This document shows positions 26,117 to 30,745 of a stretch of 64,000 nucleotides of DNA, in pieces. The position numbers and the translations under genes were made by a program. Each line of letters begins with the position of its first letter. The stretch's first letter is position 1. A model generated the notes under the pieces. It saw nothing but the letters and a program-made list of their open reading frames with translations. It made no database searches and was not told the origin of the DNA. This DNA is from Candidatus Thorarchaeota archaeon (GTDB lineage Archaea; Asgardarchaeota; Thorarchaeia; Thorarchaeales; Thorarchaeaceae), in the NCBI GenBank assembly GCA_013388835.1, contig JACAEL010000012.1, forward strand, positions 1 through 64,000, read 5' to 3'.

Positions 26117-26187
26117 GACTAGACCTCCACTGAATAATAGACACGGAGGAGGTACTTATGTCTTCCACCAAGGAGACGAATCACCAT

Positions 26188-26196
26188 GCTTATAGG
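26188..26196 (+). promoter_or_regulatory. TATA box for the rubrerythrin-like gene
   Basis: GCTTATAGG, centred 30 bp before ATG 26222. It sits inside the longer open frame (ATG 26186), showing that 26222 is the true start and the mRNA is probably leaderless. Confidence 0.6.
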
Positions 26197-26221
26197 CCGC
26201 GGGCAAGTAGTTCTGAGCGGG

Positions 26222-26695
26222 ATGCCATTGACGACAGTACAGGAATCGTTTGAGAAGCTGATCTCTCTTGCAATAGAGAGAGAAGAAGAGGCATACGAGT
26301 TCTACACCGAGGCTGCCAAGAAGGCAGAACTGACCTCATCCGCAAAGCTGCTGAAGGAACTGGCGAAGCAAGAGGTCAAACACAAGGAGAAGCTAATGAA
26401 GGCTCTCAAAGGCGATGTGTGCGACACTTTTGGTTGTACAATGGAAGAGCTGGAGAGAAGAGACCTGAACAAGTACCTTCTTGACATTCCGTTGGCGCCC
26501 TCGGCCACTCCTCAGGAGCTGCTCATCATAGCCATGAAGCGAGAGGAGGCTTCTTTCAACTTCTATAAGTCGTTGTCAGAGCTCACTGGAAACGCCTCTC
26601 ACAGGGGAGTCTTTGAGACCCTCGCGAAGGAAGAGAACCAGCACAAGGACCGTCTACAGGAGCTGTACGACAAGCACTTCCAACCCTGGATGTAA
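26222..26695 (+). CDS. Rubrerythrin-like diiron (ferritin-like) protein
   Basis: A four-helix bundle of 157 aa with two copies of the diiron signature: EREEEAYEFY then EVKHKEKL, and REEASFNFY then EENQHKDRL, giving the Glu and ExxH ligands. No rubredoxin domain follows. Such proteins reduce peroxide or store iron in anaerobes. The promoter places the start at ATG 26222. Superoxide reductase and a bacterioferritin-like protein lie within 12 kb, suggesting an oxygen-defence set. Confidence 0.85.
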   Translation: MPLTTVQESFEKLISLAIEREEEAYEFYTEAAKKAELTSSAKLLKELAKQEVKHKEKLMKALKGDVCDTFGCTMEELERRDLNKYLLDIPLAPSATPQELLIIAMKREEASFNFYKSLSELTGNASHRGVFETLAKEENQHKDRLQELYDKHFQPWM

Positions 26696-26736: not shown

Positions 26737-28017
26737 TCAGGTCCTGTGCAATAGGGGCGCCGCAATGAATGTGAGACCGTGCTTGGTGAGCTCTCTAGCG
26801 GTCCGGTTAACTGCTGCATGCTTATCGAGGTAGTTCTGCAGTAGCAGAGGCATGTGTCCAGCAGCCTCGATCTCGGACTTCGCTCTGAAGTAGTCCAAGA
26901 TGTCGCTCCTGTGCTCCCGCGTGACTTCCACATCAGGAGGACCGCCCTCGTGTTTCGCGCTGACGTTTCGGACATGGTCGGCCAGTTTGATTAGTTCCGG
27001 CAGTCGGTCGTAGGGCTGCCGTACTATGCTCTTGTATGTCTCAGTTATGTGGTGTTCCAGACGCACAACATCCTCAAAGCCAAACCACTTTCGCACCTGA
27101 GCGGCTAGCTCTATTGTCTCATTGTTTACGCTGTTGGACAGATTGAAGCCAATGAGAGGGGTTGTGCCGTCCGGACGACTGAATAGCTTCGCGGTCATGA
27201 GAGTCCACAGACAGGCGAAGGGATTGTCATTTCCCATGTAGACAGAGATCTTGAACTCCATGTCGATGCCCAGTTTGTGCATCATGTAACCTATTAGGAC
27301 GCTCCCTGGGTTGACATTCAGAACCTGCTTGACTCCGTATGTTGTGTAGTAATGCAGGTATTCGTCCGCCCACTTCAGTGGGAAGTCATTTGGCATTCCA
27401 ACACCACCAAAGTAGCCCGTTATGGTCTCTGGACCACCGAGATGTACGTTGGCCGGTGCACCGTCAGGACCGGGCTTGGTTCCCCTAGTGTCGAGTGTCT
27501 CAACATAGGAGGAGCCGACAATCTGCATGCCCGCAGCAAATGCAAGCACATGGTCATCGGCAGTCTGTTCAGCCATGTTGCGTACACGGATGAACCGTCC
27601 AGGCATCAAGTCTTGATTCGCTATCGAGGTCTTGGCCTCCTCAATCAACCATGGGAAGTACTGACAGGCGCTAATCTCAAGGGTCACGGCAAACGAGTCA
27701 TCAGACTTGAAACTCTCAGCACGTTCACCGAGCACCTTGCGTCGGTACTCAGGGACTGATATGAAGGCGTCATTATCTCGCTGCTCCTGAAGCCATGTCA
27801 GGTCGCGCACGAACGGCGACTTCTTTGCCTCCAACTTCTTCATCAACACGTCAAGTCGTCGGGCTTCGGTCGCGCGCCTGTTGATCTCTTCAACACCGCC
27901 ATACTTGTCAATGATTCCAAGCAGGCCATTCACAAGTGGGTTGTCCGCACTAGTCAGGAATGCATTGAGCTCGTCGAGTATGTGACGGTCAATTGTTAAA
28001 CTCATTCGGTCGGTCAT
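26737..28017 (-). CDS. Conserved-looking enzyme-like protein, family not recognised
   Basis: About 426 residues with good codon use throughout. The N-terminus is helical and charged; the core alternates strands and helices (FAVTLEISACQYFPWLIEEA, YGVKQVLNVNPGSVLIGYMMHKLGID, FKISVYMGNDNPFACLWTLM, GFNLSNSVNNETIELAAQ), which suggests an alpha/beta barrel. I could not name a family. The frame opens at 28116, but a TATA-like gtttatctg near 28090-28098 implies transcription from about 28070, so ATG 28017 (MTDRMSLT) or 28005 is the start. Confidence 0.7.
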   Translation of the reverse strand: MTDRMSLTIDRHILDELNAFLTSADNPLVNGLLGIIDKYGGVEEINRRATEARRLDVLMKKLEAKKSPFVRDLTWLQEQRDNDAFISVPEYRRKVLGERAESFKSDDSFAVTLEISACQYFPWLIEEAKTSIANQDLMPGRFIRVRNMAEQTADDHVLAFAAGMQIVGSSYVETLDTRGTKPGPDGAPANVHLGGPETITGYFGGVGMPNDFPLKWADEYLHYYTTYGVKQVLNVNPGSVLIGYMMHKLGIDMEFKISVYMGNDNPFACLWTLMTAKLFSRPDGTTPLIGFNLSNSVNNETIELAAQVRKWFGFEDVVRLEHHITETYKSIVRQPYDRLPELIKLADHVRNVSAKHEGGPPDVEVTREHRSDILDYFRAKSEIEAAGHMPLLLQNYLDKHAAVNRTARELTKHGLTFIAAPLLHRT

Positions 28018-28134
28018 GGCTAGGTCATCCCGTATCTTGTTGGCGTGGAGTACCAGTTGATGAGTAGAGGAGAATGGTAACAAGCCACAGATAAACAATT
28101 CTGACCAACCGGACACCAGACACTTCAGAAGGGC

Positions 28135-28710
28135 TCACTGCGAGCTGTCTGGCATGTCTTCCTCAGGCGGTCCATGTAGAGAATCAGTGACGAGTGAACG
28201 AATCCTGGGACCGAAGGCAGCGGTGAAGGTGCCACCTACTGTCACCTGAATACTGTTGACAAGGACGAGTTCCGCCACTGCAGGCTCAATTCCGAGAAGG
28301 AACACCTCGGCGACAAAGTACCCTGTGAGCATAGCACACGCTCCAAGAACGATACCTAGCAGATCCCACTTGGTGAGCCGGCTAGGGGTACTAGACTTGA
28401 GACTGAAGTAGCCCACGACTAGGCCTTCTGTCCCCTTAGAAACTAGAGTCACTGGTGCAAACATATGGTAGCCCAGAGCAATGTCGGCCATTGCAGACCC
28501 CACCCCACCGGCAAACAACCCGCCCACGGGTCCAAGGACCATGCCTGAAAGCATGACCAGCACATCACCAAAGTTCAGGTACCCGCCCCAAGGAAATGGA
28601 ATGGCAATCACAACAGTCGCAACTGTTGTCAGACCGGTCATGATTGCGACTAGTACAATTCCGGTGGTGTAACTCAGCGGACCAAGTGCCCTTAGGCTCA
28701 TCCATATCAC
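28135..28710 (-). CDS. ECF transporter S-component (vitamin-uptake type)
   Basis: A 191-residue membrane protein with five or six spans. The segment GGYLNFGDVLVMLSGMVLGPVGGLFAGGVGSAMADIALGY, then APVTLVSKGTEGLVVGYF, is typical of energy-coupling-factor substrate-binding components, which capture vitamins and hand them to a shared ATPase/T module. No ECF module is in this window. Substrate unknown. The start is GTG 28710 or ATG 28701. It is divergent from the PLP-fold/PadR gene across a 64-bp promoter region, which suggests regulation by it. Confidence 0.8.
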   Translation of the reverse strand: MIWMSLRALGPLSYTTGIVLVAIMTGLTTVATVVIAIPFPWGGYLNFGDVLVMLSGMVLGPVGGLFAGGVGSAMADIALGYHMFAPVTLVSKGTEGLVVGYFSLKSSTPSRLTKWDLLGIVLGACAMLTGYFVAEVFLLGIEPAVAELVLVNSIQVTVGGTFTAAFGPRIRSLVTDSLHGPPEEDMPDSSQ

Positions 28711-28774
28711 TCTTCCATGTGCGGCGACTGGGCCCTTGTATATATAAGTTCGAGCCTATATATAGGCTGCACAA
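28711..28774. promoter_or_regulatory. Divergent promoter with 16-bp perfect palindrome
   Basis: Two TATA boxes serve opposite genes. GTATATATAAG (28738-28748) lies about 30 bp before ATG 28775. CTATATATAG (about 28756-28765) serves the minus-strand ECF gene. The second box is the centre of a perfect palindrome, AGCCTATATATAGGCT (28753-28768), which also falls between the TATA and start site of the plus gene. A dimeric repressor bound here would block both promoters. Confidence 0.7.
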
Positions 28775-30322
28775 ATGTCGCTTGCAGAAGGGCTCCAGTG
28801 TAGCACTTGTGGGCGATTCCCGAGTTCCCCAAGAGCACGCCGCTGCGACAGATGCGGCAGCAGTCTCAATGTGAGATATGACCTTGAAACAGCCAAGGAG
28901 TATCTGACTCGAGATGTTCTGGAACGAAGGAGACCCGGACTGTGGAAGTACGAAGAGATTCTACCTCTCAGAAACCCGGAGATGAGAGTTTCTCTGGGAG
29001 AGGGAGGGACATTTCTTCACAGGTGCATACGACTCGCAGACGAGTTCGGTTTGAGTCAGCTTAGCCTCAAGGACGAGACCATGAATCCGACGGGGGCGTT
29101 TCTCGACAGGGGGATGTCTGTCGAGGTCTCTGTGGCTCGGGAGAACGGAGTGGGCGGACTGAGCTGTGGTTCGACAGGTAACTTGGCGGTCTCACTGGTT
29201 GCGTACGCAGCAAGAGCCGGCATCAGGACCAAGGTGTTCTTCGCTCATGGCGACAGCGTTGATGTGGGAAAGTTCTACCAGATACTGGCATACGGTCCGG
29301 AACTCGAGATTGTGGGAGAACGTGAGGATGGCGAGAAGAGAGCCGAGAGCCTTGGGGACGGATGGCATCCGGTTCTCCCTGTCAATCCCAACTTCCTTGA
29401 GGGAGTACGCACAACCGCGTTCGAGATCTCTGAACAGTGCGGCTGGGAATTACCCGACTGGCTTGTCGTCCCGATGGGCAGCGGGGGACACATCTCCAGA
29501 ATCTGGAAGGCTCTGCGTGAACTCACCGAACTGGGTCTGATTGGCGGCCATCTACCAAGGCTTGTTGGCGTCCAGACGAAGGGCTGTCAGCCGATAGTAC
29601 AGTCGTTTGTGGCTGGCTCGAGAGAGGTGATGACGTGCGATGCTGGCTCCACGATAGCCCTAGACATTGCCGTTGGAGAACCTCTGTGTGGCACTGATGC
29701 ACTCAAGGCAATAAGAGAGTCAGGTGGGCTCGCCCTGAGCGTGTCGGACAGAGACACTCTTGCTTCAATCGGGCTGCTTGCGAAGCGTGAGGGCGTCTTT
29801 GTCGAGCCTGCATCCGCAACCACTATCGCGGCACTCAGTGATATGCTGGCCAGCGGCCAGATAGACCGGTCTGACAGTGTGGTTTGCGTGGTCACCGGGA
29901 TGGGGCTGAAGTACCCGGAGATTGCACGAAGCCTCGTCAAGGGCAGGCCACAGCTTGAAGACCTGCTGGGCAGATACGAGGGACGAAGTTACACAACCGA
30001 GATTGGTAGGACCAAGCAGGTCATACTCCAGATCCTGATGGCTGGCGAGTCATATGGCTACGAGCTTTGGAAGAGAATGAGCAGGGAGCGTGGAATCGCT
30101 GTGCGAATACCAAGTGTCTACCAGCACCTCTCGGAACTCAGAAGGGGCGGACTGGTACATGTTGTCCGTACTGAGAGAAGCTATGACAAGAGGACTCGGC
30201 ACTACTACGGGCTTACCGACACGGGATGGTCAGTTGCGAGGCAGTTGTCGGAACTCTCAAGAGAGGGCACTGCAGCCCATAGGCGAAGTGTTTTATCAGA
30301 CCATGAACAATGTCAGGACTAG
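28775..30322 (+). CDS. Threonine-synthase-fold pseudoenzyme fused to a PadR-like winged helix
   Basis: Residues 1-405 are threonine-synthase-like: zinc ribbon (Cys9, 12, 24, 27), substrate loop SLGEGGT, PLP phosphate loop GSTGN at 132-136, and VVCVVTGMGLKYP. But the motif that holds the PLP lysine, normally NPTGSFKDRG, reads NPTGAFLDRG: position 110 is Leu (codon CTC), so no Schiff base can form there. Residues about 409-490 are a PadR-like winged helix (ILQILMAGESYGYELWKRM, SVYQHLSELRRGGL, RHYYGLTDTG). The likely role is a ligand-sensing transcription regulator. The gene is probably leaderless from ATG 28775 and divergent from an ECF S-component. Confidence 0.85.
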   Translation: MSLAEGLQCSTCGRFPSSPRARRCDRCGSSLNVRYDLETAKEYLTRDVLERRRPGLWKYEEILPLRNPEMRVSLGEGGTFLHRCIRLADEFGLSQLSLKDETMNPTGAFLDRGMSVEVSVARENGVGGLSCGSTGNLAVSLVAYAARAGIRTKVFFAHGDSVDVGKFYQILAYGPELEIVGEREDGEKRAESLGDGWHPVLPVNPNFLEGVRTTAFEISEQCGWELPDWLVVPMGSGGHISRIWKALRELTELGLIGGHLPRLVGVQTKGCQPIVQSFVAGSREVMTCDAGSTIALDIAVGEPLCGTDALKAIRESGGLALSVSDRDTLASIGLLAKREGVFVEPASATTIAALSDMLASGQIDRSDSVVCVVTGMGLKYPEIARSLVKGRPQLEDLLGRYEGRSYTTEIGRTKQVILQILMAGESYGYELWKRMSRERGIAVRIPSVYQHLSELRRGGLVHVVRTERSYDKRTRHYYGLTDTGWSVARQLSELSREGTAAHRRSVLSDHEQCQD

Positions 30323-30364: not shown

Positions 30365-30745
30365 ATGTCAAAGAACTGGATGCAGACAGACGACTTCAAG
30401 AAGGAGAAGCATGTACCGGTCATCAGTGTCGAGAAGAAGGGGCAGGATCTCTATCATATCACTATCACTGTGGGAAAGGAGATTCCACACCCCAACACTA
30501 CTGCACATCACATCAAGTGGTGCGACCTGTTCTTCTGGGCAGAGGGAGAGAAGTTCCCGGTCGAAGTCGGGTACTGTACATTCGACCACCACGGGGAGTC
30601 GGTACAGGGAGCGGACACCAGCAAGATGTATTCGGAGCCCCATACCGTCTTCGCGTTCAAGACTCAGAAGTCAGGTACATTGATGGCCACAGCCTACTGC
30701 AACATACATGGGCTATGGAAGAGCGAGATGGAACTCAAGGCATAG
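30365..30745 (+). CDS. Superoxide reductase (neelaredoxin type)
   Basis: Reduces superoxide to peroxide using a mononuclear iron with His4-Cys ligation. Motifs: EKHVPVI with Glu14, Lys15 and His16, HPNTTAHHI with the next His ligands, and the C-terminal C-x-x-H in ATAYCNIHGLW. At 126 aa it lacks the N-terminal desulforedoxin domain, so it is the one-iron class. It lies 42 bp after the PLP-fold/PadR gene on the same strand. Confidence 0.93.
   Translation: MSKNWMQTDDFKKEKHVPVISVEKKGQDLYHITITVGKEIPHPNTTAHHIKWCDLFFWAEGEKFPVEVGYCTFDHHGESVQGADTSKMYSEPHTVFAFKTQKSGTLMATAYCNIHGLWKSEMELKA

Follow-up and report, generated by a model that had tools for sequence, protein, structure and literature searches.

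Introduction

Genes for vitamin B6 supply (pdxST, pdxK and those of pdxU-type transporters) are contained in the regulons of MocR proteins, and MocR was reported to be absent from Archaea (PMC5320631), so the role of a B6 regulator is open there. According to a survey of PLP pathways in 2023, B6 transporters were still unidentified in most species and about 10% of the analysed organisms depended on salvage; regulators were put aside in that survey as already analysed in Bacteria (PMC9997740). Coupling of a fold type II PLP protein to transcriptional control was described in Bacillus subtilis, in which the enzyme CysK controls the repressor CymR (PMC6522883).

The window analysed here, a stretch of 64,000 nucleotides from a Candidatus Thorarchaeota archaeon (contig JACAEL010000012.1), encodes a threonine-synthase-like protein fused to a PadR-type winged helix. 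Judged from its sequence and gene context, this dead-enzyme fusion appears to be an archaeal gene switch that senses B6 and had not been recognised before. It shares with MocR/PdxR a putative sensor domain derived from a PLP enzyme, a winged helix and, by gene context, B6-supply genes as predicted targets. However, MocR/PdxR are composed of an N-terminal GntR winged helix and a fold type I aminotransferase domain which holds PLP as a lysine aldimine, whereas the archaeal protein belongs to fold type II, carries its PadR-type winged helix at the C-terminus, and has neither a lysine at that position nor a clade-specific replacement. Because of these differences in fold, type of winged helix, domain order and lysine, the fusion would be a functional analogue of MocR/PdxR, functionally the closest system, and not a member of that family. 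This comparison had been made in the initial annotation, and it was strengthened by the divergent ECF S-component or pdxS neighbours, the absence of PdxS where the partner is an ECF gene, and the conserved operator. The CysK-CymR pair is also based on a fold type II protein, but it consists of two separate proteins with an active enzyme instead of one fused protein without the lysine.

With threonine synthase (ThrC; NCBIfam PRK08197, PRK05638, TIGR00260) the fusion has in common the fold, the zinc ribbon of archaeal forms, the phosphate loop and the cofactor pocket. It differs in the missing PLP lysine, the replaced substrate Arg, the B6-gene neighbours and the operator upstream. It is built from a threonine synthase, but two features that define this enzyme are lost. 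With the PadR family (PF03551) it shares the type of the C-terminal domain, but this winged helix is joined to a putative PLP-fold sensor of 400 residues and does not stand alone.

Domain architecture of the fusion protein

The features of the gene and of its divergent neighbour are listed in Table 1. The AlphaFold2 model of the protein (27 homologues in the alignment; pLDDT 86.7, pTM 0.74) was most similar to threonine synthases, the top Foldseek match being 2zsj (TM 0.87 by target, 39% identity). The cysteines of the zinc ribbon were invariant in the 27 homologues aligned. The Thr_synth_N domain gave no match in the genome search, which was uninformative in this respect.

For the C-terminal domain, the Pfam match to PadR covered residues 417-486 (2.9e-10; 40.4 bits versus a cut-off of 27), and a profile of the domain matched 50 PDB sequences, nearly all of PadR type (best 5dym, 2.6e-13). 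Modelled separately by AlphaFold2 on 31 homologues, the domain reached a pLDDT of 89, and the Foldseek matches of this model were mainly PadR-family proteins, with other winged-helix regulators as well. A recognition helix (about 445-457) and a wing (461-480) were predicted. In PadR proteins the wing is followed by a C-terminal dimerisation helix, for which a long predicted helix (482-511), the end of which was modelled with low confidence, is a candidate. The initial annotation had read the protein as a threonine-synthase-like body with a zinc ribbon and a PadR-like C-terminus. The first part was borne out by the PALP match, the 2zsj match and the invariant cysteines, and the C-terminus proved by Pfam, profile search, AlphaFold2 and Foldseek to be a true PadR winged helix, both in sequence and in predicted structure.

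Table 1. Coordinates of the fusion gene, its predicted functional sites and its divergent neighbour in the window
Feature	Position	Strand	Evidence
ECF transporter S component, divergent; predicted B6-vitamer uptake, proposed target	28135..28710	-	PF07155, 1.9e-30
ATATATAA, TATA-box-like half of operator/promoter	28740..28747	.	fixed 7-bp spacing to palindrome conserved
Perfect dyad AGCCTATATATAGGCT, proposed operator	28753..28768	.	core CCTATATATAGG at 28755-28766
27-bp candidate operator ATATATAAGTTCGAGCCTATATATAGG			
Fusion regulator, predicted (pseudo-threonine-synthase + PadR)	28775..30322	+	515-aa ORF; full-length homologues found
N-terminal zinc ribbon	28799..28855	+	C9, C12, C24, C27; codon positions confirmed
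PALP domain, fold type II PLP, residues 72-375	28988..29899	+	Pfam PF00291, 3e-62, over cut-off
Codon 110 (CTC), Leu at Schiff-base lysine position	29102-29104	+	motif NPTGAFLDRG
Asn136 of STGN, predicted PLP 3'-OH contact, retained	29180..29182	+	pocket alignment
Phe207 where threonine synthases have the substrate-phosphate Arg (NPxRLEG)	29393..29395	+	pocket alignment
Phosphate-binding loop GSGGH, residues 235-239, retained	29477..29491	+	no variation at Gly235 and Gly237 in either fused clade
Thr374 of TGMGLK, predicted pyridine-nitrogen contact, retained	29894..29896	+	Thr in 55/55 of clade A
PadR-type winged helix, residues 412-490	30008..30244	+	Pfam PF03551, AlphaFold2, Foldseek, profile search

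Distribution and phylogeny

Some match to the protein was found in 95 of 99 related genomes, many of these matches being true threonine synthases. A total of 156 distinct fusions were collected, and they were divided by the residue at position 110 into clade A, with neither Lys nor Arg (89 proteins), and clade B, with Arg (59) or Lys (8). One protein with Met in the motif NPTNSFMDR (L125) was counted as clade A by this residue, and its motif and gene order are clade-B-like. By the scan of GTDB genomes and a survey of Thermoproteota, the fusion occurred in Asgard archaea, Bathyarchaeota, Nitrososphaeria, Terraquivivens, Methanomethylicota and Thermoprotei, and also in a few MAGs labelled Thermoplasmata or Euryarchaeota. 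In a tree from a quick search without bootstraps, clade A was recovered as a group with an SH-aLRT of 96 and its sister clade B with one of 100, and unfused ThrC stood apart from the two (support 91). The same fusion with the lysine change, for which a search in other Asgard genomes had been suggested, was thus found in 89 homologues from Asgard and several TACK lineages. As far as this distribution tells, the lysine-less fusion is an old family and no lone Asgard curiosity.

The shared palindrome described below was missing from clade B (for example L142 6001-7401 (+), L122 and L128), whose members with Arg are predicted to be pseudoenzyme regulators with a Lys-to-Arg change.

Loss of the Schiff-base lysine

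All 22 aligned threonine synthases without the fusion had Lys at position 110 (NPTGSFKDR in ThrC), and the best 30 fused matches, made up of the window protein and the 29 other orthologues first fetched, had Leu, Ile or Asn. Among the 89 distinct clade-A fusions the residue was Leu in 44, Ile in 26, Thr in 7, Val and Met in 5 each, and Asn and Ala in one each. The lysines conserved in the enzyme domain of clade A (K99, K166, Lys at 212, K245 and K379) were equally conserved in true threonine synthases, and none specific for clade A was found in this domain; a shifted or replacement lysine was rejected on this ground.

The loss of the PLP lysine, which the initial annotation had claimed from Leu110, holds for the whole of clade A. 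A restored lysine was seen nowhere in the clade, long-branch relatives from other archaeal phyla included, and a sequencing error at codon 110 was rejected by the non-lysine residues throughout the clade-A homologues, the 29 other orthologues among them.

Neighbouring genes

An ECF S-component gene lay divergent to the regulator in 57 of the 89 clade-A loci, and several loci carried the complete ECF module (S, two ATPases, T) in this orientation. The pdxS gene adjoined in eight, being divergent in seven and directly downstream of the regulator in one; in 20 loci neither the ECF gene nor pdxS was nearby. In clade B, 41 of 67 regulator genes immediately preceded the ECF gene on the same strand, and an AIR-synthase-like gene frequently came next.

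A profile of the S component (15 sequences) had a sole PDB relative, chain S of 4HZU (HmpT/PdxU2, 1.3e-24). Pyridoxamine was identified from this protein by mass spectrometry, and its pocket is formed by Glu41, His84, Gln87, Tyr120, Asn140 and Gln143 (PMC4860826). In the archaeal S component these positions read Glu/Asp, Lys, Glu, Tyr, Asn and Gln. Tyr120, Asn140 and Gln143 aligned with its invariant Y131, N152 and Q155, so the pocket Tyr, Asn and Gln are conserved; it differs from HmpT/PdxU2 in that His84 and Gln87 are replaced by Lys and Glu (Lys92 and Glu95 in the window), and in its archaeal origin. The substrate of the archaeal S component is predicted from this likeness to be a B6 vitamer.

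Several other genes were observed around these loci. The gene at 26737-28116 (-) encodes a highly conserved protein (mean column identity 78% over 12 Thorarchaeia). It adjoined the gene of the ECF S component in 28 loci, frequently at a distance of about 100 bp. It was weighed as a B6 gene and set aside, the protein having no Pfam match and no meaningful PDB match; a link to B6 is possible. The AIR-synthase-like ATP-binding protein (related to HypE, ThiL and SelD) was encoded next after the ECF gene at many loci of clade B, 17 loci in total, for example L142 8883-9908 (+). The protein of that example fitted no known equivalog, and it could perform a B6 kinase-like step. In L087, L088 and L040 an EamA/DMT-type transporter of about 300 aa was encoded divergently on the upstream side of the regulator, alone or beyond the ECF gene, and is a candidate for an alternative B6 transporter; the operator was present without the ECF gene in L087 and L088. 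In most Thorarchaeia loci the cluster of regulator and ECF gene was flanked by desulfoferrodoxin (30365-30745 (+) in the window) and rubrerythrin (26186-26695 (+)), a conserved oxygen-stress neighbourhood.

Shared upstream motif

The two divergent genes of the window are separated by 64 bp, in which ATATATAA is followed after 7 bp by CCTATATATAGG. With at most 5 mismatches allowed over the 20 fixed positions, this composite was found in 69 of 88 clade-A upstream regions, in none of 66 from clade B, and in 0.34% of dinucleotide shuffles, starting mostly 26-52 bp before the start codon. It crosses phyla and was found with very different proteins, for example those of the EPTGSYLDR and NPTGAFTDRG types. 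The variant CCCATATATGG was observed at the pdxS-linked loci L102, L103 and L106, and at L196.

The exact core occurred once in the 3.0-Mb genome of the window, in the promoter of the regulator itself, and 19 times in 47 genomes of the family, of which 17 were at the regulator locus; this indicates a local, pathway-specific regulator. PadR proteins bind palindromic operators, and the conserved palindrome is a putative binding site of the fusion protein.

Proposed function

That the fusion would regulate B6 supply is well supported by the genomics, namely by the 57 ECF-linked and eight pdxS-linked loci of clade A, the ECF-linked genomes without PdxS and the common operator. The protein is probably an enzyme-derived transcription factor that would sense PLP non-covalently and repress the uptake or synthesis of B6.

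In the mechanism proposed, a threonine-synthase-like ancestor would have gained a C-terminal PadR winged helix and lost its Schiff-base lysine. The fold type II pocket could still bind PLP or a B6 5'-phosphate reversibly and non-covalently, and its occupancy would report free PLP; loss of the lysine would make sense here, since a covalent aldimine would be ill suited to reversible sensing. With its ligand bound, the protein, probably as a dimer, would bind CCTATATATAGG at 7 bp from the TATA-like element in the shared promoter. Sitting between this element and the start of its own gene, and adjoining the promoter of the divergent gene, the dimer would block access of transcription factors or RNA polymerase, and both its own gene and the divergent B6-supply gene would be repressed. 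The target would be the HmpT/PdxU-like ECF S component in auxotrophs and pdxS-pdxT in synthesisers, and when PLP falls, the repression of B6 import or synthesis would be lifted. PLP as the ligand, its corepressor sign and the binding of a dimer to DNA are parts that we infer, among which the sign (corepressor versus inducer) is the least certain step.

Cofactor and substrate pocket

Residues of the pocket were compared among 55 clade-A, 46 clade-B and 22 threonine synthase sequences. Asn136, which we take from fold type II structures to contact the 3'-OH of PLP, was conserved in 52/55, 46/46 and 22/22, respectively. Together with Gly235 of the presumed phosphate loop (235-239) and Thr374, presumably in contact with the pyridine nitrogen, it was almost always kept in all three groups, and Gly237 in both fused clades. 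At position 207, where the Arg of Thermus ThrC structures is taken to contact the substrate phosphate, 16 of the 22 threonine synthases had Arg, 47 of the 55 clade-A proteins had Phe or Tyr, and clade B had small residues. From these residues it looks as if the cofactor site was maintained while catalysis and the natural substrate were abandoned. Among the ligands considered in the initial annotation, PLP (or else a B6 vitamer) is the most likely one, ahead of threonine and phosphohomoserine, as the substrate-site Arg was changed to Phe/Tyr in those 47 of 55 and the PLP-pocket residues were kept.

It is unlikely, though worth weighing, that B6 supply is regulated through a ligand other than PLP, such as an amino acid, a PLP-amino-acid aldimine, PMP or pyridoxine phosphate, bound in a remodelled substrate pocket. 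In a pocket that lacks the lysine, binding of external aldimines or non-carbonyl vitamers could be just as good, and the conserved aromatic residue at position 207 could form a new specificity pocket. Clade B often adjoins true ThrC (a lysine-bearing ThrC in about ten loci), which is a hint of threonine metabolism there; however, the neighbours and the operator of clade A follow B6 genes and not threonine genes.

Vitamin B6 and thiamine genes in the genomes

PdxS was absent from all 47 genomes of the family of the window, while it was present in 37 of 227 genomes of the phylum. None was found in the 37 ECF-linked clade-A genomes tested (27 from Asgard, including that of the window, and 10 others); PdxS in pdxS-linked genomes is trivial and was left uncounted. 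At the rate of the phylum, 37 negatives out of 37 would have a probability of about 0.001 if independent, but the genomes are related and so not independent. In clade B, PdxS was present in 0/10 ECF-linked versus 6/10 unlinked genomes (Fisher p 0.01, with kinship ignored). Because of this relatedness the association rests on few independent switches, and since the genomes are mostly metagenome-assembled, single absences are less certain, with the most complete genomes in agreement.

It is quite improbable that the fusion controls the import of a vitamin other than B6 (thiamine pyrimidine, folate or riboflavin) by the S component, with the PLP fold serving only as a scaffold for dimerisation or ligand binding. 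The S component did score weakly with folate and riboflavin S-component models as well, and ThiC was absent from the 47 family genomes, so that it failed as a discriminator inside the family, where thiamine-precursor uptake is compatible with the gene content. The wider set of genomes discriminated: ThiC was present in the ECF-linked genomes G061, G068, G081, G091 and G236, with fragments in G052 and G096, and its occurrence in some ECF-linked, PdxS-negative genomes argues against a thiamine pyrimidine as the imported substrate. It was also missing from several pdxS-linked genomes and did not track with ECF or pdxS linkage. Uptake of another vitamin is further opposed by the same regulator at pdxS-linked loci, by the lack of PdxS from every ECF-linked genome tested, and by HmpT/PdxU2 as the sole structural relative of the S component.

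The genome of the window (G000) lacked PdxS, ThiC and any pyridoxal kinase (PF08543) over the cut-off, with only a weak partial match to the latter, giving an apparent double auxotrophy for B6 and thiamine pyrimidine. A PfkB-family kinase may phosphorylate the imported B6.

Possible residual enzyme activity and annotation

It is very improbable that the protein still acts as an enzyme, either a threonine synthase or another PLP enzyme that does without the lysine or uses a different base, and that the winged helix is only an accessory. The rest of the pocket is conserved, Lys is kept in some clade-B members, and NCBI profiles score the window protein as threonine synthase (it passes the PRK08197 and thrC models). 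But no lysine replaced the lost one, the substrate Arg was replaced as well, and the co-occurrence with the operator and B6 genes is strong. In addition, two intact lysine-bearing ThrC paralogues were present in the genome of the window, so the lysine-less copy was left free. That the gene is a pseudogene in decay, or that codon 110 is an assembly artefact, has nothing in its favour beyond the missing catalytic residue; this reading has a negligible probability and is refuted by conservation, as orthologues are full-length with 37-57% identity, their pocket, zinc and winged-helix residues are invariant, position 110 is non-lysine throughout, and a branch with SH-aLRT 96 has clade A on one side.

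The clade-B protein L057 4989-6395 (+), with Arg for the PLP lysine, scored 457.9 versus a cut-off of 421 bits with PRK05638 (NF004170), a profile of 442 residues which spans the C-terminal winged helix. As far as was found, the fused architecture is thus already in databases with its function unrecognised; the equivalog naming of fused proteins by NCBI is likely a systematic misannotation, and many "threonine synthase" entries are probably regulators. In open-licence PMC full texts, which give weak evidence of absence, no paper was found on a regulator composed of fold type II and a winged helix, and nothing on a fusion of threonine synthase with PadR or a helix-turn-helix.

Taken as a whole, it is rather likely that these proteins form an ancient Asgard and TACK family, in which a fold type II pseudoenzyme freed from its lysine would reversibly sense PLP and control B6 uptake or synthesis through an operator shared across phyla. 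It would be a convergent counterpart of MocR/PdxR and, as far as was found, the first B6 regulator proposed for Archaea. Uptake of vitamin B6 and its control are poorly known, and if the proposal is true, candidates for both the regulator and the transporter would be at hand for large parts of the Asgard and TACK archaea, and the family would be a clear case of an enzyme turned into a sensor by loss of its covalent cofactor anchor. Predictions of the threonine pathway in these genomes would need correction.
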